Below, one piece after another: positions 40,956 through 52,889 of a stretch of DNA of 64,000 bases. The position numbers and the translations under genes were made by a program. The stretch spans positions 1-64,000 of the forward strand of contig PWYW01000020.1 in assembly GCA_003567685.1 (NCBI GenBank), given 5' to 3'. Below the pieces are notes generated by a model. The model was given only the letters and a program-made list of their open reading frames with translations. It made no database searches and was not told the DNA's origin. How positions within the stretch are numbered: the stretch's first letter is position 1; the number at the start of each line of letters is the position of its first letter. This DNA is from Gammaproteobacteria bacterium (GTDB taxonomy: Bacteria > Pseudomonadota > Gammaproteobacteria > Xanthomonadales > Wenzhouxiangellaceae).

Positions 40956-41852
40956 ATGAATCGATTTCGTTTGCTAAGGGCAGGTATCTGGGCATTGACT
41001 GCGCCGTTGCCCAAGCAGCGCCGAATTGCTGCGCGCCACCGTTTACGTGCGGGGCTGGATAATCGGCAGGTGCTGTCGGCCGACATGGTCGTGTTGTCAC
41101 GAGCCAAAAGCGGGCGCACCTGGCTTCGCGCCATGTTTTCCCGCCTGTACCAGCGGAAATACGGTCTGGCCGAGAACCAGTTGCTGGAGTACGACAACTT
41201 CCACAAACAGAATGCCCAGGTTCCGGTGGTTGCCATGACCCATGGTCATTACCTGGAAAACCTGGCCCGGCATCCGCGCCATGGTGGGCCCTTGAAAGCC
41301 ATGCCGGTGGTGTTCCTGCTGCGCGACCCGCGCGATGTGGCGGTTTCGGAGTTCTTCCAGTCCACCCGCCGGGCCAGTGCCTACAAGCGAGAGCTCTACC
41401 AGGTGGATGAAGCCGGCTCGATGTTCGAGTTCGTGATGCAGTCGCCGCTGGGCTTGCCGGCCATTTGTGACTACCTCAATCACTGGCACCGCGAGCTGCA
41501 GGGCTGGGATCGCGTGCATTACCTGTTCTACGAAAAGCTTCGGGCAGAGCCGCAGTCGCAGATGGCCGACCTGCTGGCGTTTCTCGGCCAGGACTTTTCG
41601 GCTGACGACATCGCCGAGGCGGTGGAATTCTGCTCCTTCGAGGCGCTCAAGCGCAAGGAACGCGACAACTACTTCAACAACAGTCGTCTCAAGGCCAAGA
41701 ACGTTGAAGACCCGGACTCCTACAAGGTTCGGCGCGGCAAGGTGGGCGGCTACCGGGACTATTTCAGCGATTCGGAGGCCGAACGCATCGACCGATACGT
41801 GGCTGACCGCCTGGACCCGGCGCTGCACGAGGCTTTCGGGCTGACGGCATAA
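40956..41852 (+). CDS. PAPS-dependent sulfotransferase
   Basis: 298 residues. The PAPS-binding 5'-phosphosulfate loop is SRAKSGRTWLRAM (48-60), the 3'-phosphate motif RDPRDVAVSEFF (123-134), and the C-terminal KVRRGKVGGYRDYFS matches the cosubstrate-binding RKG-type loop. It probably transfers sulfate to a surface glycan or lipid, given the neighbours. The first gene of a plus-strand cassette; the next gene starts 1 bp after its stop. It is divergent from DUF2339. Confidence 0.87.
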   Translation: MNRFRLLRAGIWALTAPLPKQRRIAARHRLRAGLDNRQVLSADMVVLSRAKSGRTWLRAMFSRLYQRKYGLAENQLLEYDNFHKQNAQVPVVAMTHGHYLENLARHPRHGGPLKAMPVVFLLRDPRDVAVSEFFQSTRRASAYKRELYQVDEAGSMFEFVMQSPLGLPAICDYLNHWHRELQGWDRVHYLFYEKLRAEPQSQMADLLAFLGQDFSADDIAEAVEFCSFEALKRKERDNYFNNSRLKAKNVEDPDSYKVRRGKVGGYRDYFSDSEAERIDRYVADRLDPALHEAFGLTA

Positions 41853-41853
41853 G

Positions 41854-43209
41854 ATGCGCTGCCTGATTCTGCCGTGCGAGACCCGGGTTCGCGAGTTTCG
41901 CGCCAAGCTGTTGCTGGCGCTGGTGGCTGCCAGCCGTGGCATTCCGGCAATCGTCGGTGCCAAGAAAGCCATTGATCTCGATCTTGATCGCTACCCCTCG
42001 GGTGTTTACGTTGGCAAGAGCGTCACGGCCCGCTCGCGGCATAACCTGCTGCTGGCTCGTGCCTGCGGTCATCGCGTGGCGCTGTGGGATGAAGAAGGCC
42101 TGGTCTGGGCATCACGCGAGGTTTACTGGCGCACCAAGGTGGACGCCGCCACGCTGAACACGCCCGAACTGCTGCTGGCCTGGGGCGAGATGAACGCGGC
42201 GGCCTGGACTGAGCATCCGGATTACGCCGGCGGGCCGGTGAAGGCGGCCGGCAACCCCCGTGCCGACCTGCTAAAACCGGCTCTGCGCCCCTTGTTCGAC
42301 GACGAAGTGGCCAGTATCCGAGAGCGTTTTGGCGAGTTCGTTCTGGTCAACACCAATTTTTCCAGGGTCAATCATGTGCAACCGCGCCAGAATCGCCACC
42401 TGAAATGGTTGCGCGAACAGCGGCCGGATGACCCGCGCGGCGGCTTTGCCGCCCACAAGTACGAACTGTTCAAAGCGTTCAGTGAGGCCTTGCCGGCACT
42501 GGCCCGCGCCATGCCGGATCGCCGCTTCGTGATTCGTCCGCACCCCAGCGAAAAAGCCGACACCTGGCGCGAGCTGGTGGCCGGCCTGGACAACGTCAGC
42601 GTCACCCACGAAGGGAACGTCGTGGCCTGGCTGCTGGCCTGCCAGGGCCTGGTCCATAACGGCTGCACCACGGCCATTGAGGCCTACCAGGTGGGCCGGC
42701 CGGCACTGGCCTACACCCCGCTGCCGCCATCGGACTTTGATCATCCGCTGCCTAACGGCGTCAGCCTGGACTGCCCGAGCTTTGACCAGCTGAAGGCGCG
42801 CGTCTTGCAGGCTTTTGACCGTTCCGAGGCGCTGTTTGTCGAACAGCAGGCCGGAGAGGCCGGCGAGATGATGCGCCAGGCCCTGGCCGGCGTGGACCGA
42901 CCGGGGCTGGATAGCGAAGCCTTGCTGGACGCGATGGCACCGCTGCTGGCACTGCCTGCCGAGGCGCCAGCCCGACGCTCACGGCTGGCGCTCGCGCTTC
43001 GCCGGGCCCTGCGGCCGATTGAAAGCCGCCTGCCCGGAACCGCCAACTACGGGCCGTATCTGGCCCATATGTTCGCCCCGGTCAGTGATGTTGATCTGCG
43101 CCGGGAGCTTGAGCGCATGGGCGCCTGCCTGGGGTTCACCGGGCTGCCCGAGTGGCAGCGCATTGGCGATAACGTCTTCAAGCTGGAGCCGATGGCGTCA
43201 GTGGCTTAA
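41854..43209 (+). CDS. Surface carbohydrate biosynthesis protein (GT-B-like)
   Basis: 451 residues with a Rossmann-like N-terminal half (MRCLILPCETRVREFRAKLLLA) and a C-terminal half with FVIRPHPSEKADTWRE, a His/Glu-containing motif typical of GT-B or capsule-type transferases, then GLVHNGCTTAIEAYQVGRP, a nucleotide-sugar-binding-like loop. It resembles the surface-polysaccharide protein family found beside NeuB-like genes. The substrate is unknown. It lies directly after the sulfotransferase gene. Confidence 0.72.
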   Translation: MRCLILPCETRVREFRAKLLLALVAASRGIPAIVGAKKAIDLDLDRYPSGVYVGKSVTARSRHNLLLARACGHRVALWDEEGLVWASREVYWRTKVDAATLNTPELLLAWGEMNAAAWTEHPDYAGGPVKAAGNPRADLLKPALRPLFDDEVASIRERFGEFVLVNTNFSRVNHVQPRQNRHLKWLREQRPDDPRGGFAAHKYELFKAFSEALPALARAMPDRRFVIRPHPSEKADTWRELVAGLDNVSVTHEGNVVAWLLACQGLVHNGCTTAIEAYQVGRPALAYTPLPPSDFDHPLPNGVSLDCPSFDQLKARVLQAFDRSEALFVEQQAGEAGEMMRQALAGVDRPGLDSEALLDAMAPLLALPAEAPARRSRLALALRRALRPIESRLPGTANYGPYLAHMFAPVSDVDLRRELERMGACLGFTGLPEWQRIGDNVFKLEPMASVA

Positions 43210-43239
43210 GTATTCACCTTCAGATGGAGTGCTAATTCC

Positions 43240-44310
43240 ATGAAAAAAGTAAAAATCTTTGGTGCAGGATCAATTGGTAACCATCTGGCGCATGGCTGTC
43301 GCCAGCAGGGTTGGCAGGTCACGATCTGCGATATCGACCCCGATGCGCTGGCCCGCACGCGTGACGACATCTACCCGGCACGCTACGGCGCCTGGGACGA
43401 GGCCATTCGTCTGAGCGCGCCGGAGGCGGTTGCCGACGAAGCCTTTGACCTGGTCATCATCGGCACGCCGCCCGACAGCCATATCCCCATTGCCATTGAT
43501 CAGATGCAGCGCTGTCCGCCGCGCGTGATACTGATCGAAAAGCCGCTGTGTCCACCGGACCTGGCGCCGTGCGCCGAACTGATTCGGCTGGCCGACGAGA
43601 CATCCACCCGCTTGCTGGTGGCATACAACCACCGCCTGACCACCCATACCCGTCTGGCCGAGGCGTGGTTGCAGTCGCCCGGTATTGGCCAAGTCACCAC
43701 GCTGCGCGCCATGACACGGGAGCACTGGGGCGGTATCTTTGCTGCCCACCCTTGGCTGGCCGGACCGTCCGACAGCTACCTGGGCTTTACCGCCAAGGGC
43801 GGCGGCGCGCTGGCCGAGCATAGCCATGCCATCAATATCTGGCAGCACTTCGCCGACCTGGCCGGGTTGGGTCGAATCAGCCAGGTTCAGGCCATGCTGG
43901 ACGAGGTTGAGCAAGACGGTGCCGCCTACGACCGCATCGCCCAGTTATCGGTCCGTACCGACCGCGGCCTGGTTGGCACCATTGTCCAGGACGTGGTGAC
44001 CCAGCCAGCCCAGAAGTGGCTTCGCATGGAAGGCACCGAGGGCTACCTTGAATGGCAGGTGAGCATTGACGCCCAGCACGATCTGGTGCGCCTGGTTCGC
44101 CATGATGGCGAGACGCTGGAAGAGAAGGTCAAGAAAACCCGGCCGGATGATTTCCGTGGCGAAATCGAGCACATCGGCGATTTGCTCGACAAGCCCGATC
44201 TGGCCTCGCCCCTGGACCTGGAGGCCGGGCTGGACACCATGCGCGTGGTGGTTGCCGCCATCGACTCCTCCCGCAAGGGCCGCCTGGTCGAGGTTGACCG
44301 CTCCTCATGA
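43240..44310 (+). CDS. Gfo/Idh/MocA-family oxidoreductase
   Basis: 356 residues. The N-terminal Rossmann fold has GAGSIGNHLA (8-17). The EKP motif (IEKPLCPPDLA, about 99) positions the catalytic Lys, and a C-terminal alpha/beta domain carries GGGALAEHSHAINIW, where His is the usual acid/base. It acts on a sugar or nucleotide sugar with NAD(P). In this cassette it may make or modify the sugar precursor. It overlaps the following gene by 4 bp. Confidence 0.88.
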   Translation: MKKVKIFGAGSIGNHLAHGCRQQGWQVTICDIDPDALARTRDDIYPARYGAWDEAIRLSAPEAVADEAFDLVIIGTPPDSHIPIAIDQMQRCPPRVILIEKPLCPPDLAPCAELIRLADETSTRLLVAYNHRLTTHTRLAEAWLQSPGIGQVTTLRAMTREHWGGIFAAHPWLAGPSDSYLGFTAKGGGALAEHSHAINIWQHFADLAGLGRISQVQAMLDEVEQDGAAYDRIAQLSVRTDRGLVGTIVQDVVTQPAQKWLRMEGTEGYLEWQVSIDAQHDLVRLVRHDGETLEEKVKKTRPDDFRGEIEHIGDLLDKPDLASPLDLEAGLDTMRVVVAAIDSSRKGRLVEVDRSS

Positions 44311-45395
44311 TCGGCTCGCATCGCATTCTGGTGGTGGTGCCGGCGCGCGGCGGCAGCAAGGGCATTCCGATGAAGAACCTGCTGCCGGTCGCCGGCAAGC
44401 CGCTGCTGGTGCACACGGCTGAACTGATCACCAAGCTCGGCTGGGTCGACCGCGCGGTGGTGTCGACCGATCACCTGGTGATTCGCGATACCGCGCTGGA
44501 TCATGGTCTGGATGTGCCCTTCATGCGCCCGACCGAGCTGTCCGGCGACCGGATTGGCGATGTGGACGTCCTGGTTCACGCACTTCAAGCTACCGAGCAG
44601 GACGATGGCCAGCACTACGACGTGGTGGTAATGCTGCAGCCGACCTCACCGCTGCGCCAGGCCCGCCACGTTGAAGCCACCGTCCGCAAACTCATCGACG
44701 AGAAGCTCGATGCGGTCTGGACTGTCAGCCCGACCGATCTCAAGGCGCATCCACTAAAGCAGTTGAACGTGGATGACAACGGCCAGATGAGTTACTACGA
44801 CCCGGCGGGTGCCGCCATCATTGCCCGCCAGCAGCTCAAGCCGGTTTATCACCGCAACGGGGTGGCCTATGCGCTGCGGCGCGAAACCCTGCTGGAGCAG
44901 GCCGCCTTGATGGGTGAGCGGAACGGGGCGGTGATCATCGATGAGCCCCAGATCAGCATTGATACGCTGGATGACGTCAAGCGGGTCGAGCACTTTCTTG
45001 CCGCGCAGGCCCTGGATGTGCCCGCGGCTGACCCTGTGCCAGCCCGACCCAAGACGATGGTGATTGATATTGATGGCGTGCTGGCAGAGCCCGTCCCGGC
45101 GTTGGACTACGCCCAAGCTGGACCGCTGAAAGACAACATCGCCCGGGTCAATGCGTTGTTTGACCTGGGCTGCCATATCACCTTGTTCACGGCCCGGGGC
45201 TCGGGCACCGGCAAGGACTGGTCGGAAGTCACGCGTGAGCAGATGCAACGATGGGGAGTGCGGTACCATGAGTTGCGCTTTGGCAAGCCACCGGCAGACT
45301 ACTACGTGGACGACCGGTTGGTCACCCTGGCCCAGGCCGTTGCGCTGTGTGGGCTAACCGATCCAACGGCTGATGACCGCATTTCAAACGATTGA
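44307..45395 (+). CDS. CMP-sugar synthetase (NeuA-like) fused to a HAD phosphatase
   Basis: 362 residues, two domains. Residues 1-232 are an acylneuraminate-type cytidylyltransferase (VVPARGGSKGIPMKNL, QPTSPLRQARH, HRNGVAYALRRE, PQISIDTLDD). Residues 248-350 are a small HAD phosphatase: nucleophile and acid Asp254/Asp256 in VIDIDGVLAEP, TARGSGTGKDW, Lys327 in FGKPPA, and DYYVDDRL. The fusion suggests dephosphorylation of a nonulosonate-phosphate followed by CMP activation on one polypeptide. It is coupled to the oxidoreductase gene and 13 bp before the NeuB-like gene. Confidence 0.88.
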   Translation: MIGSHRILVVVPARGGSKGIPMKNLLPVAGKPLLVHTAELITKLGWVDRAVVSTDHLVIRDTALDHGLDVPFMRPTELSGDRIGDVDVLVHALQATEQDDGQHYDVVVMLQPTSPLRQARHVEATVRKLIDEKLDAVWTVSPTDLKAHPLKQLNVDDNGQMSYYDPAGAAIIARQQLKPVYHRNGVAYALRRETLLEQAALMGERNGAVIIDEPQISIDTLDDVKRVEHFLAAQALDVPAADPVPARPKTMVIDIDGVLAEPVPALDYAQAGPLKDNIARVNALFDLGCHITLFTARGSGTGKDWSEVTREQMQRWGVRYHELRFGKPPADYYVDDRLVTLAQAVALCGLTDPTADDRISND

Positions 45396-45408
45396 TTACA
45401 GGTGTTCG

Positions 45409-46905
45409 ATGAGCAAGATTTTTGATGAGCTTTTCATCTTCGAGATGGCCAACAACCATCAGGGTGATGTCAAACACGGTCTGAAGATCGTCGACGCGGC
45501 CGCTCGGTTGGCGCGCGAACATCGAGTGCGAGCCGCCGTCAAGCTGCAGTTCCGCGAACTCGACAGCTTTATTCACCCGGCCGCCAAGGGGCGGGATGAC
45601 ATCATGCACATCCCGCGCTTCGAGAGCACCCGTTTCGATGAAGGACAGTTTCGCCAGCTGGTCGAAGCCACTCGTGCCGCCGGCATGGTCACCATTGCCA
45701 CGCCGTTTGACGAAGCCTCGGTCGGGCTTTGTCAGGCGCTGGGTATCGACATCATCAAGGTAGCCAGCTGCTCGGCCAGCGACTGGCCGCTGATCGAAGC
45801 CATCGCCGAGACCAAAAAGCCGGTGATTGCCTCGACCGGCGGTCTCTCGATTTACGAGATCGACAACCTGGTCACCTATCTGAGCAAGCGCGTGCCGGAG
45901 TTGGCCGTGATGCATTGCATCTCGGTCTACCCGACGCCGGCTGAAGATCACTCCATGAATTTCATGGCCAAGATGATCAAGCGCTACCCCTATGTCACCA
46001 TCGGCTACTCCGGCCACGAAGCCCCGGACAACACCGACGTCGTCATGGTGGCGCTGGCCCAGGGTGCCAAGCTGCTGGAACGCCATTTCGGCGTTGAGAC
46101 CGACACCATTTCGCTGAACAAGTATTCGATGAACCCGGACCAGGCCGGTGAATGGATCCAGGCGGCCAAACGCGCGCGGGCCATTATGGGCGAGGACGAT
46201 AGCAAGCACGTCTCGCAAAAAGAATACGAATCGCTGCTGCAGCTCCAGCGCGGGGTGTTTGCCAAGCGCGCGATCAAGCAGGGTGAAACGCTCTCGCGCG
46301 ACGATGTCTATTTCGCCATGCCGTGCCAGGATGGCCAACTGACGAGCGGTCAGTTTGGCCAGTACCGCGCCAGTTTTGTCGCCTCGCGCGACTACGCGGC
46401 GGACGAGGGCGTGTTCGAGCAGGCCCAGCCCGACAAGTACAGCCAGATTCGCGGCATCCTGCACGATGCCAAGGGTCAGCTCTACGAGGCGGGCATTGCC
46501 CTGGGCGATGACATCAGCATTGAAATTTCACACCACTACGGCATTGATCGGTTCCGTGAAACCGGCTGCGTTCTGATCAACTCGATCAACCGCGAATACT
46601 GCAACAAGTTCCTGATCATGCTGCCCGGTCAGGCTCATCCGCACCACAAGCACAAGGCCAAGGAAGAAACCTTCCACGTGCTGTGGGGCGATCTGGAAGT
46701 CGATCTGGACGGTGACATCCTGCACTTGAAAGCCGGCGACAAGTTGCTGGTCGAGCGTGACCAGCTGCATGCCTTCAGCAGTCGAAAAGGCTGCATCTTC
46801 GCCGAGATCTCGACGCGGTCAATCCGCAGTGATTCCTACTACGCTGACGAAAAGATCGCCGCCATGGATCCGCTGGAGCGCAAGACCCTGGTTGACTCCT
46901 GGTAA
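45409..46905 (+). CDS. NeuB-type nonulosonate synthase with SAF and C-terminal cupin domain
   Basis: 498 residues from ATG 45409. Residues 1-255 form a NeuB TIM barrel (FEMANNHQGD, KLQFRELDSF, KVASCSASDWPLI, IGYSGHE), which condenses an aldose with phosphoenolpyruvate. Residues 280-345 are a SAF/antifreeze-like domain (RGVFAKRAIKQGETL). Residues 375-480 form a cupin with a metal-binding HPHHKHKAKEE segment and His454, resembling D-lyxose/mannose isomerase cupins. The three-domain architecture is unusual. It is the last gene of the cassette and convergent with the ceramide genes. Confidence 0.87.
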   Translation: MSKIFDELFIFEMANNHQGDVKHGLKIVDAAARLAREHRVRAAVKLQFRELDSFIHPAAKGRDDIMHIPRFESTRFDEGQFRQLVEATRAAGMVTIATPFDEASVGLCQALGIDIIKVASCSASDWPLIEAIAETKKPVIASTGGLSIYEIDNLVTYLSKRVPELAVMHCISVYPTPAEDHSMNFMAKMIKRYPYVTIGYSGHEAPDNTDVVMVALAQGAKLLERHFGVETDTISLNKYSMNPDQAGEWIQAAKRARAIMGEDDSKHVSQKEYESLLQLQRGVFAKRAIKQGETLSRDDVYFAMPCQDGQLTSGQFGQYRASFVASRDYAADEGVFEQAQPDKYSQIRGILHDAKGQLYEAGIALGDDISIEISHHYGIDRFRETGCVLINSINREYCNKFLIMLPGQAHPHHKHKAKEETFHVLWGDLEVDLDGDILHLKAGDKLLVERDQLHAFSSRKGCIFAEISTRSIRSDSYYADEKIAAMDPLERKTLVDSW

Positions 46906-47293: not shown

Positions 47294-48487
47294 TCAGGCT
47301 GCTTCGAGATGCCTTTTCACGTTGTCCAGTGCCGACAGGATCTGATCCAGGTCGTCGTCGGTGTGGGCAGCGCTGAGCGAAATTCTCAGCAGGTTAAGGC
47401 CCGACGGCGTGGCCGGTGGAATCATCAGGTTGGCATACACACCGGCATCCAGCAGGCCACGCCAATGGGCCAGGGCGGTAGCGCGGTCTGGCAGGATGAT
47501 GGCCGCCACCGGTCCGGGAATCTCGCTGCCCATCTGGTAACCCATGTCACGCGCGCCGCTGTACAGCCGTTCGATGTTGCGGTGAAGCTGGCGGCGCAAG
47601 TCCTGGCCGGCGAGCGTCAGCCGCAGGGCCTCGCGGGTTGCCGCCATGATGGCTGGTGACGGCGAGGCGGTGAAGATATAGGGCCGGGAGGCCAATCGCA
47701 GCAGCTCCATTTCGGCATGGGCGCTGACGCAGAAACCGCCGATGCCGGCCAGGCTCTTGGAGAATGTGCCGACGATGAAGTCGATCTGGTCCAGCAGGCC
47801 GGTCTGCTCGCACAGGCCAAGTCCGCGCTCGCCGAACACGCCGAAGGAATGGGCTTCGTCAACCAGCAGCCAGGCACCGTGCTTGTTCTTGACCTCGACA
47901 AACTCGGCCAGCGGTGGCTGGTCGCCCATCATCGAGTACAGGCCCTCGACCACAACCAGCGCCTTTTTGGCATCGTCGCCCAGGCGTTCCAGGCGGCGGT
48001 CGAGGTTGTCCGGATCGTTGTGGCGGAAGCGGATAGTCTGGGCATTGCTCAAGCGGCAGCCGTCGTAGATGCTGGCATGCGAGTCCGAATCGACCAGCAG
48101 GTATTCGCCCTGGCCAGCCAGCCCCGACAGGGCGCCCAGGTTGGCCTGGTAGCCGGTTGAAAAGACCATAGCCGAGGGCCAGCCGAAGGCGCCGGCCAGT
48201 TCGCACTCGAGCTGACGGTGCAGATCGTAGCTGCCGTTGGCCATGCGCGAGCCGGTGGTGCCGCTGCCCAGTGATTCCAAAGCGTCGCAGCCAGCCTTGA
48301 CCACGTCTTCGTGGAAAGTCAGGCCCAGGTAGTTGTTGGTGCCGGCCAGGATCACTTCCTTGCCGTCGATGGTGCCGCGCGTGGCCGAGCGAACCGATTC
48401 GATGGGGGTGGCGATGGGCGCCACGCGATCGTTGCCGAGGGTGGCACGGGCCTGGGCTGCCGCCTGGAATTTGTCGAACAGGCTCAT
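47294..48487 (-). CDS. spt: Serine palmitoyltransferase (alpha-oxoamine synthase family)
   Basis: A PLP enzyme that condenses serine with a fatty acyl thioester to 3-oxosphinganine. It is 397 residues. PLP Lys244 lies in GTFSKSLAG, Asp210 and His213 in VDEAHSFG, and His137 in DSHAS. The N-terminus MSLFDKF and GTNNYLGLTF...GSGTTGSRMANG are much closer to bacterial Spt than to BioF or Kbl. It is the last gene of a four-gene minus operon and overlaps the ACP gene by 4 bp, which suits an acyl-ACP donor. Confidence 0.87.
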   Translation of the reverse strand: MSLFDKFQAAAQARATLGNDRVAPIATPIESVRSATRGTIDGKEVILAGTNNYLGLTFHEDVVKAGCDALESLGSGTTGSRMANGSYDLHRQLECELAGAFGWPSAMVFSTGYQANLGALSGLAGQGEYLLVDSDSHASIYDGCRLSNAQTIRFRHNDPDNLDRRLERLGDDAKKALVVVEGLYSMMGDQPPLAEFVEVKNKHGAWLLVDEAHSFGVFGERGLGLCEQTGLLDQIDFIVGTFSKSLAGIGGFCVSAHAEMELLRLASRPYIFTASPSPAIMAATREALRLTLAGQDLRRQLHRNIERLYSGARDMGYQMGSEIPGPVAAIILPDRATALAHWRGLLDAGVYANLMIPPATPSGLNLLRISLSAAHTDDDLDQILSALDNVKRHLEAA

Positions 48488-48741
48488 GAGTTTTCCGATT
48501 CCTTGATTGTCGTCAGGCGCTCGGCCAGTTGGTTGAGCGTCTGGACTTCGGCCAGCACGTCCACCGGAACGGATACGTCCAGTTCGTCCTCGATTTCCAT
48601 CACCAGGTTCATGATCTGGACCGAATCCAGGCCAATATCGCTGGTCAACGCGGCATCCCGGTCGACTGATTCCAGCTCGGGCAGCGCAATGGACAAGGCT
48701 TTGCCAATGGCGGCATCCACCTGGCTTCTTTGGTCGCTCAT
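48484..48741 (-). CDS. Acyl carrier protein of the ceramide cluster
   Basis: An 85-residue acidic ACP (MSDQRSQVDAAIGKALSIAL) with Ser40 in IGLDSVQIMNL as the phosphopantetheine site. The true start is ATG 48741, which overlaps the cerR stop by one base (TGATG); the longer frame from 48804 lies inside cerR. It is a dedicated carrier, distinct from the FabF-linked AcpP. It probably receives the acyl chain from the adjacent ligase and delivers it to Spt. Confidence 0.9.
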   Translation of the reverse strand: MSDQRSQVDAAIGKALSIALPELESVDRDAALTSDIGLDSVQIMNLVMEIEDELDVSVPVDVLAEVQTLNQLAERLTTIKESENS

Positions 48742-49730
48742 CAGGCTTTTCTCCAGCCGGGCAGGGTGTTGAGACTGTCGCGCAGGGTCATGGTGGGTTT
48801 CCATTCCGGGCAGTAGGTCAATTGGCTATTATCCGCATTTTTACCGGACTCGGTGTCGATATGGGGCCGACAGCGCCAGTCCGGGTGCAGCAGTTCGCGG
48901 GCTTTTCCGGCTGAAAACACGGGTGGTGGACCCAATCGCAGTCGGCTTATCAGGCTGGCTGACTGTCCGGCTGCTCGCACCAGCAGGCCGGGTAGCCGCA
49001 TTCGGCGCACACGGCGACCGCTGACGTCTTCGGCGATGCGGGCAACATCAGCCCAACTGTAGCCGCCGGGGTGGAGGTCGTCCGGGCTGACGATGTCGCC
49101 GCCCAGCATGGGTGCGCGTACGGCCTCGAGCAGGGCGCGGGCCAGATCGTCGACGTGGATCAGCGAAAAACGAGCCTGATCGCTGCCCAGCTGAGGCATC
49201 CAACCGCGGGCAAGGCCGCGCCATAGGGGCGCCAGGGCCGGGTCATCAGGGCCATAAACGGCGGGCGGGCGAACGATGACGTAGTCAAGGCCACTGGCTT
49301 CCACTCGCTGCTCGGCCGACCGCTTGCTGGCAGCGTAGTCAGACAGCGCAGGCTCCCGGGCGGCCAGGCTGGAAACATGAACCAACCGGGCAGGCGCAGG
49401 CTGCTCAAGCATGGCGGCCAGCAGGCCTTCAGTGCCAGCCACGTTGACTTGGTGGAAATCGTCCAGGGTCCGGCCGGCAATGGCGCCGGCCACATGGACC
49501 ACTGCCCGGCAGCCGTCAACCAGTCGCTTGAGGCTGTGCTGGTCTTCGAGTGAACCGGGCACCAGTGTCAGCCTGGGATGCGCGTCCAGCGTCTTGCACG
49601 GGCGGACCAGGGCGTTGACGGGATAACCGGCCTGCAGCAGGGCTTGCAAGGTTGCCTGACCGACAAAGCCAGTGGCTCCGGTCAGCGCAACCTTGCCCGG
49701 GCGATCGTTCTCAGCTTTCGCGATCGTCAA
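48741..49730 (-). CDS. cerR: NAD-dependent epimerase/dehydratase, predicted 3-oxo-ceramide reductase
   Basis: A 329-residue extended SDR. The cofactor loop is TGATGFVG (17-24) and the catalytic pair Tyr132/Lys136 lies in DYAASK. In Caulobacter the equivalent protein (CerR), encoded between spt-acp and the acyl ligase as here, reduces 3-oxo-dihydroceramide to dihydroceramide. The assignment rests on this gene order. The start is TTG 49730, the only start codon before the Rossmann loop. It overlaps the ligase gene by 20 bp. Confidence 0.8.
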   Translation of the reverse strand: MTIAKAENDRPGKVALTGATGFVGQATLQALLQAGYPVNALVRPCKTLDAHPRLTLVPGSLEDQHSLKRLVDGCRAVVHVAGAIAGRTLDDFHQVNVAGTEGLLAAMLEQPAPARLVHVSSLAAREPALSDYAASKRSAEQRVEASGLDYVIVRPPAVYGPDDPALAPLWRGLARGWMPQLGSDQARFSLIHVDDLARALLEAVRAPMLGGDIVSPDDLHPGGYSWADVARIAEDVSGRRVRRMRLPGLLVRAAGQSASLISRLRLGPPPVFSAGKARELLHPDWRCRPHIDTESGKNADNSQLTYCPEWKPTMTLRDSLNTLPGWRKA

Positions 49731-51504
49731 CAGCTTCGGTATGGGGCGTGCGGTTGACCAGCTCCTGGGTGAGCACCGGGCGGTCTTCCAGGCCGTTGCG
49801 CTTCAGGAAATCAAGGCGCGCGCCACTGCGGGAGAGTTTGCCGGAAGAGGTTCGCGGCAAGGTATGCAGCGGCACCAGCTCGATCAGGCAGGCAATGCCG
49901 AACTCGGTCTGAATGCGCTGCTTCAGGCGTTCAACCAGGCTGGCCTGGCGGAAGGCGTCGCGCTCTCGGCACTGAACCACCAGCACGGCCACTTCGCTGC
50001 CGTCTTCGCCGGGGATCGAGAACGCCGAGGCGTCTTCCGGTCGAACTTCCGGCTGCTGCTCGGCAATGTACTCAAGATCCTGTGGCCAGATGTTGCGGCC
50101 GTTGATGATCAGCAGATCCTTGGCACGTCCAGTAATGAACAGCGAGTCGCCGGCCCGGTAGCCAACATCACCCGTGTTCAGCCAACCGTCGTCTGACAGT
50201 GCGGCCTGGCTGGCTTCCGGATTGTTGGCGTAGCCCGACATTACGCTGGGGCCGCGCAGGAAAATCACGCCGCAATGGCGTTCCGGCACCAGGCTGCCGT
50301 CGGCGGCCCGAATCTCGACCTCGTACTCGGGCAGCGGACGCCCGCAGTTGACGAATTCGCTGTCACGGATGGCCTTGTCGGTCGGACCCAGCGGGCGAGC
50401 AATGCGGTCATGGGCCAGCAGGTCGGCATCCAGACGGTCGACTTCCAGGCCCTGGCCCAGCGGGGCAAAACTGACGGCGAGTGAGCATTCGGCCATGCCA
50501 TAGCAGGGCAGGAACGCCGAGGCCGGAAAACCGGCGGGGGCGAGCGTTTCGGCAAAGCGACGCAGCCAGCCGGCGCGGATCATTTCGGCACCCACACCGG
50601 CCACCCGCCACGAAGAAAGGTCGAAGCGGTCCAGATCGCTGTCGCGCAGGCGACGGGCGCACAGCGCGTAACCGAACGGCGGGCTGAACGAGATGGTCGA
50701 GCGGTTGCGCGACATCAGGTTCAGCCACAGGCGCGGGCGCATGGCGAATTCGCGCGTGCCGAGGTAATCGACCGACAGCTGCGACACCACCGGTCCCAGG
50801 ATCAGGCCAACCAGGCCCATGTCGTGGTAGTAGGGCAGCCAGGACATGAAACGATCACCGCGACGAATCTGAACACCGAACTGGAGGATGCCGGTCAGAT
50901 TGGTCAGAACGGCCTTCTGGGTGATCATGGTGCCGCGCGGGAAGCGGGTGCTGCCGGAGGTGTACTGAAGATAGGCCAGTTCATCGGAACGCGGCGGCTC
51001 TGGCAGTTCATCGGCAGCCGGCAGTGCCTCGAAAACCGATAGGGGGCCGCAGACCCGCAGATCCAGTCCATCGGCTGCTTCGGCCAGGAAAGATTCGAAC
51101 GATTCCGGCGCGAAGGCCGCCTGTGCGCGGCAATCGACCAGCATGGCCCGCAAATGCGCGACGAAAGCTTCGCGGCCGCCCAGGTGAACAGCCGCTGGCA
51201 GCGGTACGGGTACCAGGCCGGCATACTGGCAGGCAAAGAAAAGTACCAGGAAGTGCGGATGTGTATCGGCGACCAAAGCAACCGTGCTGCCACGCTCAAG
51301 CCCGAGGCCATGCAGGCGATGGGCGAGTGCGACGGCCTGGTTACGGAGGTCGGAGTAGGGCAGGACGCAGGTCAAATCGCCGCGACCATTGTAGAAATTG
51401 CATCCGGTGGTCCCGGTGGCCGCGTAGTCCAGCGCTTCGGCCAGGCTTTGGTAGCCAGCCGTTTTCAGCGGCAGGGAATTATTCGTCGGAGTAGGATGCT
51501 GCAT
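49711..51504 (-). CDS. Fatty acyl-AMP ligase / acyl-ACP synthetase of the ceramide cluster
   Basis: About 597 residues of the ANL superfamily (FAAL-like). The adenylate loop reads YTSGSTRFPRGTM, a variant of TSGSTGxPKG. Also seen are YGMAECSLAV, GYANNPEASQ, LNTGDVGYRAGDSLFITGRAKDLLI and the C-terminal PRTSSGKLSRSGAR with the catalytic Lys. It should activate a fatty acid and load the adjacent ACP. The start is placed at ATG 51504 (51543 possible); upstream in-frame ATGs overlap the promoter. It is the first gene of the four-gene minus operon. Confidence 0.85.
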   Translation of the reverse strand: MQHPTPTNNSLPLKTAGYQSLAEALDYAATGTTGCNFYNGRGDLTCVLPYSDLRNQAVALAHRLHGLGLERGSTVALVADTHPHFLVLFFACQYAGLVPVPLPAAVHLGGREAFVAHLRAMLVDCRAQAAFAPESFESFLAEAADGLDLRVCGPLSVFEALPAADELPEPPRSDELAYLQYTSGSTRFPRGTMITQKAVLTNLTGILQFGVQIRRGDRFMSWLPYYHDMGLVGLILGPVVSQLSVDYLGTREFAMRPRLWLNLMSRNRSTISFSPPFGYALCARRLRDSDLDRFDLSSWRVAGVGAEMIRAGWLRRFAETLAPAGFPASAFLPCYGMAECSLAVSFAPLGQGLEVDRLDADLLAHDRIARPLGPTDKAIRDSEFVNCGRPLPEYEVEIRAADGSLVPERHCGVIFLRGPSVMSGYANNPEASQAALSDDGWLNTGDVGYRAGDSLFITGRAKDLLIINGRNIWPQDLEYIAEQQPEVRPEDASAFSIPGEDGSEVAVLVVQCRERDAFRQASLVERLKQRIQTEFGIACLIELVPLHTLPRTSSGKLSRSGARLDFLKRNGLEDRPVLTQELVNRTPHTEAVDDRES

Positions 51505-51577
51505 GAAAGTCGTGGAGTCCCTTCTTGTTGTAGCGTCCCGCATGGGATTCTTGTTTTGGATCGCGCAATAACCTGTC

Positions 51578-51606
51578 ATTATAAGCCGGCCGCTATCCGA
51601 TGAAAA
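51578..51606. promoter_or_regulatory. Divergent promoter of the ceramide cluster with shared -10
   Basis: On the minus strand TTTTCA (51606-51601), 17 bp and TATAAT (51583-51578) form a good promoter for the ligase operon. The same AT block read on plus gives TATAAG (51580-51585), with TTGGAT 18 bp upstream, for the GNAT-like gene at 51600. The two -10 elements overlap almost completely. Confidence 0.6.
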
Positions 51607-52889
51607 CCAGCAATTTGAACAGAAGCGATTCTCCTGTGTCAAAATCAGGATTTCCCACCACTCAAGACTGTGACGCCGTTAACGTTCCAGCCACTGCTCG
51701 GCTTGATGATTCTCGTCCCCCGGATATGCGACCGCGTTCGTCGATGAGGACGGATTCTTGTGCATTAAAGGTTGCCAGGGTGAGCAGCCGCCGGGATTGG
51801 CGTGAGTTTCTGGCCCTTGCGGGTCAGGTCCAGTCGGCCGACCCCTGCTGGGTAAGCCCGTTGCGCCATGAGCGCCAACGCCAATGGTCACCTCGTCATC
51901 CCGCCTTCAGGACGATGGAAGCCCAGGCCTTTGTCGCCCGCCTTGGCAATCGCCCGGTAGGTACCATCAGCGCGCAGGTTGACCGGCTATTGCAGCCGGT
52001 CGATGGCCAGCGCATTGGCTACTTCGGACAGTTTGAGTGCATTGATGATCAGGCGGTTGCCGACGCCTTGCTGTCGAGTGCGCGCGAATGGCTGGGCAAG
52101 GCAGGCTGCGATCAGATGCAAGGGCCTTTCGATCTGAACGTCAACCAGCAATGCGGACTGCTGATTGACGGCTTCGATACCCCGCCCATGATGTTGATGA
52201 ACCATGCGCCGCCTCGCTATGCCGAGCATCTCCAGACCTACGGTTTGTCGCCGGCCATGCGGCTTTATGCCTATCGAGTTGCGCCGAATTTCGAGGCACC
52301 CGCAGCGATGAGCCGCCTGTTGGCCAGGAGCGCACGCCGCATTCGCTTCAGGCCAATGGATTTTTCGCGATTCGGGCAGGAAGTGTCATTGATTCGCGAG
52401 TTGTTCAATGATGCCTGGGCAAAGAACTGGGGGTTCTCGCCGCTGACACCCGAGGTGTTTGCCCGGAGTGGGCGCGATTTGAAGCAGATTCTCAAGCCGG
52501 CCCATAGCTGCATTGCCGAGGTCGATGATGAACCGGCAGGTTTCATCGTCGCGCTGCCCAACATCAATGAGCTCATTCAGGATCTTGATGGCAAATTACT
52601 GCCCTTCGGCTGGGCGAAATTGCTGTGGCGGCTGAAACGCCAGGCGGCGACCACGGCTCGGGTTCCCCTGATGGGCGTGGTGCAGCGCTATCAGCGGGGG
52701 CCCATGGGGGCGGCAATCAGCTTCGGCATGATCGACAGCATCCGGCATGCGCTTCATGAGGACGGCATTCGCAGCGTGGAATTGTCGTGGATTCTTGAGA
52801 CCAACGACGGCATGAATTCGCTGATCGAGGCCATGGGTGGCGAGCGCTACAAGACCTACGCCATTTTCGAGGGGGCTTGCCGTGGATAA
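51600..52889 (+). CDS. bcerS: GNAT-fold N-acyltransferase, predicted bacterial ceramide synthase
   Basis: 429 residues. After a variable N-terminus (about 1-55) the conserved part runs from DWREFLALAGQVQSADPCWVSPLRHERQ, through GRISAQVDR-like and GQFECIDDQ segments, to SVELSWILETNDGMN near the C-terminus, typical of the large acyltransferase family that includes bacterial ceramide synthase. It should N-acylate 3-oxosphinganine. The location, divergent from ligase-cerR-acp-spt, supports this. The start is uncertain: 51600 lacks a Shine-Dalgarno, and ATGs at 51726 and 51744 are alternatives. Confidence 0.75.
   Translation: MKTSNLNRSDSPVSKSGFPTTQDCDAVNVPATARLDDSRPPDMRPRSSMRTDSCALKVARVSSRRDWREFLALAGQVQSADPCWVSPLRHERQRQWSPRHPAFRTMEAQAFVARLGNRPVGTISAQVDRLLQPVDGQRIGYFGQFECIDDQAVADALLSSAREWLGKAGCDQMQGPFDLNVNQQCGLLIDGFDTPPMMLMNHAPPRYAEHLQTYGLSPAMRLYAYRVAPNFEAPAAMSRLLARSARRIRFRPMDFSRFGQEVSLIRELFNDAWAKNWGFSPLTPEVFARSGRDLKQILKPAHSCIAEVDDEPAGFIVALPNINELIQDLDGKLLPFGWAKLLWRLKRQAATTARVPLMGVVQRYQRGPMGAAISFGMIDSIRHALHEDGIRSVELSWILETNDGMNSLIEAMGGERYKTYAIFEGACRG

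Follow-up and report, generated by a model that had tools for sequence, protein, structure and literature searches.

The DNA analysed here (the window) is a 64,000-nucleotide stretch from a gammaproteobacterium placed in the Wenzhouxiangellaceae (assembly GCA_003567685.1, contig PWYW01000020.1, positions 1 to 64,000). Five forward-strand genes at 40956-46905 are probably one operon, and the last two encode fusion enzymes. One fusion joins a NeuA-type cytidylyltransferase to a HAD phosphatase (NeuA-HAD), and the other joins a NeuB synthase, a SAF domain and a cupin (NeuB-cupin). A first-pass annotation had proposed that these two proteins compress a complete pathway to a nonulosonate activated with cytidine monophosphate (CMP), in parallel with the route to CMP-KDN (KDN, 2-keto-3-deoxy-D-glycero-D-galacto-nononic acid). 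Both fusions lie where it had located them, as judged by Pfam and a structure model (Table 1). It had also seen no NeuC, PseB or PseC gene nearby, and a genome-wide search with the corresponding families (PF02350, PF02719 and PF01041) gave no match within the window. We cautiously favor the interpretation that the two fusions constitute a phosphorylated, KDN-class CMP-nonulosonate route. For NeuB-cupin, a start at 45409 is likelier than one at 45373, since AGGTG lies just upstream and the 498-amino-acid open reading frames (ORFs) of five related loci (L032, L034, L037, L038 and L039; L numbers denote loci of our survey) fit this start.

Table 1. Genes, domains and key residues of the locus, in positions of the window
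Feature	Coordinates	Strand	Evidence
Sulfotransferase (Sulfotransfer_1), first operon gene	40956..41852	+	Pfam E 2.6e-27; homologues near NeuB-cupin in several relatives
TIGR04396 surface carbohydrate biosynthesis protein, possible glycosyltransferase	41854..43209	+	NCBIfam 284.1 bits, cut-off 125
Gfo/Idh/MocA oxidoreductase, possible sugar-tailoring enzyme	43240..44310	+	PF01408 E 7.1e-10
NeuA-HAD fusion, 362 amino acids	44307..45395	+	
NeuA-type cytidylyltransferase domain, residues 1-232	44307..45002	+	CTP_transf_3; PDB 6ifd; motifs
BcbF-type HAD phosphatase domain, about residues 240-350 of NeuA-HAD	45024..45356	+	PDB 9iqw; borders by analogy with L031
NeuB-SAF-cupin ORF, 510 amino acids	45373..46905 (from probable start: 45409..46905)	+	
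NeuB synthase barrel and SAF domain, residues 17-349	45421..46419	+	Pfam NeuB E 2.9e-44; 3g8r Z 39.7
Met316, at the place of Arg314 in meningococcal NeuB	46318..46320	+	Alignment of 80 loci
Cupin, D-lyxose/D-mannose isomerase type, residues 355-510	46435..46902	+	Foldseek and profile matches
His425, His427, Lys430, Glu432 (H75, H77, K86, E88 of Thermofilum D-lyxose isomerase)	46645..46668	+	
His466 (H143) and Glu478 (E156) of the cupin	46768..46806	+	

The synthase part of NeuB-cupin is recognized by the Pfam NeuB model, and the Pfam SAF model gave no match in the ORF. The SAF domain is evident from the AlphaFold model of the protein, which has a mean predicted local distance difference test score (pLDDT) of 93.7. 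Residues 2-336 of the model superpose on PDB 3g8r (Z 39.7, root-mean-square deviation (rmsd) 1.6, 334 residues) with the SAF region included, and the model also aligns through the SAF region with 1xuu. The protein falls below the NCBIfam cut-offs for both the NeuB equivalog (161.9 against 399.65) and PseI (144.9 against 340.25). Family counts below refer to the best 80 of 123 confirmed loci, ranked by likeness to the locus in the window. Eleven residues of meningococcal NeuB that serve phosphoenolpyruvate (PEP) binding, metal binding and catalysis (E25, K53, T110, K129, S132, S154, Y186, S213, H215, E234 and H236) are kept in 78 to 80 of these 80 loci, two rows being truncated. Arg314 is reported to be the only SAF-domain residue of meningococcal NeuB that reaches the active site, where it contacts the N-acetyl group of N-acetylmannosamine (ManNAc); the R314A mutant is described as inactive and R314K as active, and mannose as no substrate for this enzyme (PMC6795526). 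The corresponding column of the family contains neither Arg nor Lys (Met 66, Phe 12, Ile 1 and Trp 1 of 80), and 11 cupin-fused NeuB proteins of another set have Ile (nine), Met (one) or Phe (one) there. Arg61, Arg82 and Arg293, conserved in 78, 78 and 80 of the 80 loci, respectively, are candidates for binding a substrate phosphate.

The C-terminal part of the same chain is matched by Pfam Cupin_2 (1.8e-9) and Lyx_isomer (1.3e-4, 21.7 bits, cut-off 20.8). When the model was searched with Foldseek, the D-lyxose isomerases 2y0o (E 1.8e-11, rmsd 1.9, 163 columns) and 7nzp (6.9e-11), with 7nzq and 7nzo, ranked directly after the NeuB structures; the last three are structures determined without a sugar and with fructose or mannose. 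In the VIA list made with the complete model, only NeuB and related barrel rows appear, and the cupin matches come from Foldseek and from sequence profiles. A profile of 25 cupin domains found 2y0o first (6.9e-16) and 7nzo fourth (1.7e-13), with quercetin dioxygenases ranking between them and L-ribose isomerases further down. A helix, model residues 339-357, precedes the cupin barrel. For the D-lyxose isomerase of Thermofilum (TsLI), H75, H77, H143 and E88 are described as the metal ligands, and mutants at the residues corresponding to K86, E156 and D163 as having lost activity (PMC8378251); the printed chain is shifted by 24 relative to this numbering. Six of these seven residues are aligned and conserved in our cupin, as His425, His427, His466, Glu432, Lys430 and Glu478, which are kept in 72, 79, 79, 79, 79 and 79 of the 80 loci, respectively. 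Thus, from predicted fold and conserved residues, the cupin has the D-lyxose/D-mannose isomerase fold and is isomerase-like, as had been supposed.

In NeuA-HAD, CTP_transf_3 matches residues 9-207 (E 2.2e-20, 73.9 bits, cut-off 22.6), the NeuA domain matches PDB 6ifd with E 9.8e-28, and the motifs ARGGSKGIPMKN and QPTSPLR are present. The NCBIfam PseF model scores 129.9 bits, under its cut-off of 205.7. The C-terminal part matches 9iqw, a 'Capsule biosynthesis protein', over residues 251-341 (E 1.5e-7) and, weakly, 1xpj (E 0.0023), both of which we take to be BcbF-type HADs. Its HAD motifs are DIDGV, LfTARG, fGKP and YiDDr, where capitals mark positions at least 90% conserved in 50 aligned relatives of the domain. 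The first-pass annotation had remarked that this HAD domain is not of the KdsC type, and it fits this remark that no KdsC model was among the Pfam and NCBIfam matches at E 0.001, the presence of such models in those libraries being unchecked.

Relatives of NeuB-cupin occur in several bacterial phyla. The nearest named ones, at 78-87% identity, are metagenome-assembled genomes (MAGs) labelled Wenzhouxiangella, Wenzhouxiangellaceae and Gammaproteobacteria, which makes Wenzhouxiangella or a close relative the probable source of the window. L042, labelled Verrucomicrobia, is 71% identical; many loci are MAG contigs whose taxon labels may be wrong. A NeuA gene lies within 7 kb of NeuB-cupin in 68 of the 80 loci, within 200 bases in 54, and mostly upstream. 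Among the 12 loci without it, seven (L044, L049, L052, L069, L090, L104 and L105) have less than 2 kb of upstream sequence, and L104 and L105 have short flanks on both sides. An architecture survey had been suggested as a check of the original proposal. In it, NeuA-HAD lies within 7 kb of NeuB-cupin in 49 of the 80 loci, so the pair of fusions is not a chance combination.

The phosphatase provides the best argument for a phosphorylated synthase product, since two unrelated HADs fill the same slot. One or the other is found in 62 of the 68 NeuA-bearing loci: the BcbF type forms the NeuA-HAD fusion in 49 and is a separate protein in one (L103), and an unrelated HAD_2-type protein alone is present in 12, in nine of which it is fused or within about 420 bases. 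Both types occur in two of the 49 (L084 and L085). In L102 (10001-12283), a single 760-amino-acid protein comprises NeuB, cupin and a HAD_2-type domain. Neither HAD type nor a Gfo/Idh gene was detected by the same models within 7 kb of NeuB in 20 ordinary loci from the phylum, which were picked by hand from 52 lower-scoring matches. The difference in HAD presence, 62/68 against 0/20, has a Fisher p of 7.5e-15, although related loci do not count as independent, and training the HAD, NeuA and Gfo models on cupin loci biases them towards those loci over the controls. The 20 control genomes were therefore also searched with Pfam HAD_2, a model independent of this training, though the cupin loci were not searched likewise; among the matches listed, none lay within 7 kb of the control NeuB, the nearest being about 11 kb away (G524). 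With this bias in mind, the expectation that the HAD belongs to the module holds.

The gene directly upstream of NeuA-HAD encodes a Gfo/Idh oxidoreductase (model pLDDT 94.3). Of the 68 NeuA-bearing loci, 30 have such a gene within 7 kb, as does one locus without NeuA, and the gene is kept in distant phyla. It accompanies the cluster of Nitrosomonas halophila (L048), for instance, and is missing from that of Rhodocytophaga aerolata (L056). Trees were built from 67 rows (66 loci and the one studied) that had a NeuA stretch of at least 180 amino acids and a complete NeuB start, with L042 and L087 left out. After exclusion of the long rows L094, L103 and L099, 27 rows of the resulting 64-row NeuA tree form one clade (100/100); 26 of them have Gfo and the other, L043, is on a truncated contig. 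Gfo presence requires three changes on this tree. For the full 67 rows, a quick method gave four changes on the NeuA tree against seven on the NeuB tree. Three loci from Salinisphaera and a Gemmatimonadales MAG (L101, L106 and L102) have a distant NeuB, yet carry the Gfo-type NeuA and Gfo, and in four candidate-phylum rows (L083, L086, L089 and L093) Gfo is present and NeuA lies outside the Gfo clade. Since Gfo co-occurs with a separate NeuA clade even beside a distant NeuB, the sequences suggest that this NeuA is adapted to a Gfo-modified sugar.

The earlier claim that the pathway is complete in two proteins is supported only in part, and it is doubtful that two suffice at this locus. With Gfo/Idh as the next gene upstream and its NeuA partner mostly in a clade apart, the product here may depend on a third enzyme and may be a KDN derivative instead of plain KDN. 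The simpler alternative, as in the original proposal, is that the two fusions alone make plain CMP-KDN and that Gfo/Idh has a different sugar of the same glycan as its substrate. We regard this as rather unlikely. In its favor, no Gfo lies within 7 kb in 38 of the 68 NeuA-bearing loci, and NeuA-HAD adjoins NeuB-cupin in 30 of the 38, so the fusions can work without Gfo, and Serratia is reported to have KDN with neuA and neuB (PMC9000132). Against it stand the position of Gfo directly upstream in our locus, its retention in distant phyla and its mostly separate NeuA partner. The fold was uninformative about the Gfo substrate, since the 50 matches listed were all at Z 30.8-35.0, RgNanOx and YjhC included. 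RgNanOx is described as a single Gfo/Idh enzyme that oxidizes and re-reduces C4 of a nonulosonate with bound NAD (PMC7535918), and 8-epipseudaminic acid is reported to be made by an oxidoreductase paired with a NeuA-reductase fusion (PMC12053666).

We hypothesize that the route, a phosphorylated one of the KDN class, would run as follows. The cupin, acting as a metal-dependent aldose-ketose isomerase, would convert fructose-6-phosphate to mannose-6-phosphate, as its fold and residues suggest. NeuB would condense mannose-6-phosphate with PEP to a nonulosonate-9-phosphate, which is predicted to have a hydroxyl at C5 because an aldose-ketose isomerase upstream implies an aldose with a C2 hydroxyl. 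The HAD domain would then remove the phosphate, a step consistent with its co-occurrence, and the NeuA domain would make the CMP-sugar. The Gfo/Idh enzyme beside NeuA-HAD probably oxidizes or epimerizes the sugar before or at activation, from which a KDN derivative could result, and the TIGR04396 protein and the sulfotransferase may use or decorate the final sugar. TIGR04396 homologues are also close to NeuB-cupin in several relatives. Synthase, phosphatase and cytidylyltransferase are encoded together at the locus studied and in 62 of the 68 NeuA-bearing loci. The original interpretation is partly supported, with substrate and product predicted rather than observed.

The chain length of the product could be different if the cupin supplied a lyxose-type pentose phosphate, giving an eight-carbon product, or a heptose phosphate, giving a ten-carbon one. 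The nearest structures of the cupin are indeed D-lyxose isomerases. In L103, the gene immediately before NeuB-cupin encodes a GmhA-like protein with a SIS domain (Pfam); a related gene occupies the same place in L094, and another lies about 5 kb from NeuB-cupin in L098. We nevertheless consider such a product improbable, since a SIS protein is nearby in just three of the 80 loci, the characterized enzymes of B. thetaiotaomicron, P. parvum and human are reported to use mannose-6-phosphate (PMC6200933), and the analogous fusion in Serratia is reported to go with KDN (PMC9000132). The SIS-domain genes themselves (L103:9299-9901; L094:9151-9960; L098:4199-4768, reverse strand) hint at a heptose-based variant.

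Several observations weigh against the KDN-class route. Three acceptor-side residues of meningococcal NeuB, N74, N184 and F288, differ in the family, which points to a different acceptor and does not tell which. The loss of Arg314 is not unique to the fusions, since 10 of 23 readable NeuB rows outside the cupin lineage have neither Arg nor Lys there (Arg 12, Lys 1, Asn 5, Ser 3, Gln 1 and Gly 1, three more rows being gapped; the Ser is in L132, L140 and L143). In the cupin, the first metal-binding histidine, His425, is Gln in seven of the 80 loci (L057, L061, L064, L065, L067, L068 and L072), apart from L091, which is truncated and has a gap in this column, and the counterpart of D163 of TsLI is two columns off the conserved Asp487. 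Neither HAD type is present in six of the 68 NeuA-bearing loci (L047, L062, L083, L089, L094 and L098), nor in four loci with a TIM-type or long NeuB (L181-L184, of which one is close to a contig end). Among 12 more distant loci that form a second set (L169-L180), NeuA lies within 7 kb in one and a HAD type in six. Within this set, L169 has NeuA, Gfo and the second HAD type, L179 has a NeuB of the cupin lineage and no cupin, and in L173, L175 and L176 no NeuA, HAD type or thiamine-diphosphate enzyme was seen. The NeuA-HAD back end is thus the rule among the loci nearest to ours and not lineage-wide. The link between Gfo and NeuA, evaluated on independent pairs, gave three pairs and a median p of 0.25, with no power.

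The D-lyxose isomerases that we compared act on unphosphorylated sugars, as is reported for the one described in PMC8378251, and this weighs on the same side. It would suit a scheme in which the aldose used by NeuB is unphosphorylated, the cupin has a free sugar or the nonulosonate itself as substrate and the HAD works elsewhere. We think this scheme quite improbable, as one of the two HAD types is fused or close by in 62 of 68 loci, in contrast to 0/20 of the ordinary NeuB loci.

Further points on the opposing side come from the rest of the genome. NeuB-cupin is the single NeuB-family match in the assembly, which comprises 2.74 Mb in 107 contigs at 99.64% completeness and also encodes NeuC (TIGR03568, 409.9 bits, cut-off 235.9) on another contig, C7 (L185:8650-9897). 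In addition, a 654-amino-acid WbpM/CapD-like protein and one nearly full-length DegT-type match are on other contigs. Precursor genes elsewhere in the genome had been named as evidence that would count against the proposal; such genes are in part present, on different contigs from the fusions. They would fit an ordinary synthase of the neuraminic or legionaminic acid type, fed by an unlinked NeuC, with the cupin as a structural or regulatory part. We consider this very improbable. Arg314 is missing in 80 of 80 loci, the isomerase residues of the cupin are conserved, and NeuC is flanked on both sides by FG-GAP/ASPIC-like proteins, as judged by eye, and not by sugar genes. Among 28 genomes of the genus, 11 have NeuB-cupin and seven have NeuC, and both occur only in the genome studied. 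Mutual exclusion is not significant (Fisher p 0.19). The other six NeuC genomes have no NeuB-domain match, and 10 of the 11 NeuB-cupin genomes have no NeuC, which is no proof of absence because five of the ten are less than 90% complete. With NeuC isolated and lacking in these ten, a NeuC-fed pathway was rejected.

No match to type I phosphomannose isomerase (PF20511) or to bact-PGI_C was found genome-wide. A MannoseP_isomer domain (139.5 bits) occurs in a 518-amino-acid frame that, judging from its length, is probably ManC. The cupin as the sole source of mannose-6-phosphate was a candidate that we rejected, since this ManC-like protein may also supply it; this, too, counts against the scheme that we favor.

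A broader reading, which we hold only tentatively, is that NeuB-SAF-cupin is a self-feeding synthase module that occurs across phyla with different back ends, and that the sugar of our locus is an undescribed nonulosonate. With HAD and NeuA, the module would lead to CMP-KDN; with Gfo/Idh and the special NeuA in addition, as in the window, it would lead to an undescribed KDN derivative; and in loci where NeuA was not seen, the alpha-keto acid itself would be the substrate of a thiamine-diphosphate enzyme. A NeuB of the cupin lineage stands beside such an enzyme in 12 loci, with no NeuA seen in any, the flanks being long enough in L108-L110 and not in L104 and L105. In the second set, the thiamine-diphosphate enzyme adjoins NeuB in seven of 12 loci, and NeuA was seen in none of the seven. 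The NeuB product, as an alpha-keto acid, would be a plausible substrate for a decarboxylase or carboligase, and this branch is possibly a sugar pathway that uses the keto acid itself.

The acetolactate synthase-like enzymes of this branch are in L104, L105, L108-L110 (from Pfam for L109), L171, L172, L174 and L177-L180. In L108-L110, two of them labelled Lachnospiraceae and one Patescibacteria, a radical SAM-type protein is also present (Pfam for L109), and in L171, L174, L177 and L180 a BcbF-type HAD is fused to a NAD epimerase-like protein and not to NeuA (Pfam for L177). Two Runella loci, L067 and L068, with about 10 kb on each side, have no NeuA, HAD type, Gfo or thiamine-diphosphate enzyme within 7 kb. 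NeuB-SAF has other fusion partners as well. It is joined to a xylose-isomerase-like TIM barrel in L132 and L143 (Pfam AP_endonuc_2), where NeuA adjoins and L132 carries a CBS domain as well; L140 is as long as L143, has Ser at the place of Arg314 and also adjoins NeuA. In L142 (1396-3810, reverse strand), an 805-amino-acid frame has a flavin amine-oxidase/GLF-like domain ahead of NeuB-SAF. No full NeuB-cupin was found at E 1e-5 in plasmid records (91 matched, none over more than 80% of the query) or in phage records (three matched).

Probable sphingolipid genes adjoin the NeuB operon on the reverse strand (47294-51642). They encode a serine palmitoyltransferase, a small acyl carrier protein (ACP)-like protein identified by eye, a NAD epimerase-type protein and a fatty acyl-AMP ligase. 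A functional link was rejected: the block is kept in Wenzhouxiangellaceae-type loci, and since no such block is present in Nitrosomonas or Myxococcota loci, the neighborhood is plain synteny.

Genes for NeuC, PseB/PseC or LegB/LegC are the usual basis for predicting bacterial nonulosonates. Since the operon described here lacks the NeuC, PseB and PseC families, pathways of its kind could escape notice or be annotated as 'N-acetylneuraminate synthase'. A NeuB-isomerase fusion, no Arg at position 314 and a HAD phosphatase together would provide a search signature for KDN-type sugars in environmental bacteria. In addition, two chemistries are raised, by the Gfo branch and by the thiamine-diphosphate branch. 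If the module is indeed self-feeding, isomerization and PEP condensation are joined in one chain.

The individual parts can be compared with known structures and enzymes. The closest solved NeuB-SAF is 3g8r of Chromobacterium violaceum ('spore coat polysaccharide biosynthesis protein E', 44% identity), which has Phe at the place of Arg314 and is a 350-amino-acid chain with no cupin. The D-lyxose isomerases 2y0o, 7nzo-7nzq and 3kmh share the cupin fold and the HxH, KxE, H and E residues, but they are free-standing, only 16-23% identical and act on free sugars. Our cupin family has extra conserved residues, Ser386 in 80 of 80 loci and His387, His388, Arg503 and Lys504 in 78 of 80. The Ser-His-His run is unmatched in the D-lyxose isomerase alignments and the Arg-Lys pair is outside the aligned part. 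RgNanOx and YjhC, which are sialic acid enzymes (PMC7535918), belong to the same superfamily as our Gfo; the match is general (Z 33.1 and 33.9, tied with many) and both are catabolic. In the PMC literature, to which the search was limited with subscription papers outside its scope, we found no paper on a NeuB-cupin fusion.

As for whole pathways, the parallel with the KDN route drawn at the outset is sound. That route is described as mannose-6-phosphate and PEP to KDN-9-phosphate, KDN and CMP-KDN, and the P. parvum synthase is reported to use, of seven sugars tried, mannose-6-phosphate only (PMC6200933). The route of Bacteroides thetaiotaomicron and Prymnesium parvum has the same order of synthase, phosphatase and CMP-KDN synthetase as we propose. 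It differs in using separate proteins, and the available part of that account mentions no fused isomerase and reports that P. parvum yielded no phosphatase homologue (PMC6200933). Serratia marcescens provides another parallel. In strain UMH9 (KL1), NeuB is reported to carry an additional domain of COG1082 (sugar-phosphate isomerase/epimerase), sialic acid to be 4-fold lower when neuB is lost, and KL1 and KL2 capsules to contain KDN and Neu5Ac at about 20:1 (PMC9000132). Like our locus, the KL1/KL2 neuA-neuB genes thus combine a NeuB-isomerase-type fusion with an adjacent NeuA, and KDN is described as the main capsule sialic acid. Unlike our locus, they have COG1082, which would be a TIM barrel if like that of L132 and L143, and no cupin, and the available part of that paper mentions no fused HAD or Gfo (PMC9000132). 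By this analogy, the cupin looks like a second, unrelated isomerase that has been fused to NeuB for the same purpose as that of Serratia. The pathway would thus be a variant of the KDN-type CMP-nonulosonate pathway, in which the fusion of NeuB to an isomerase is itself already known from Serratia.

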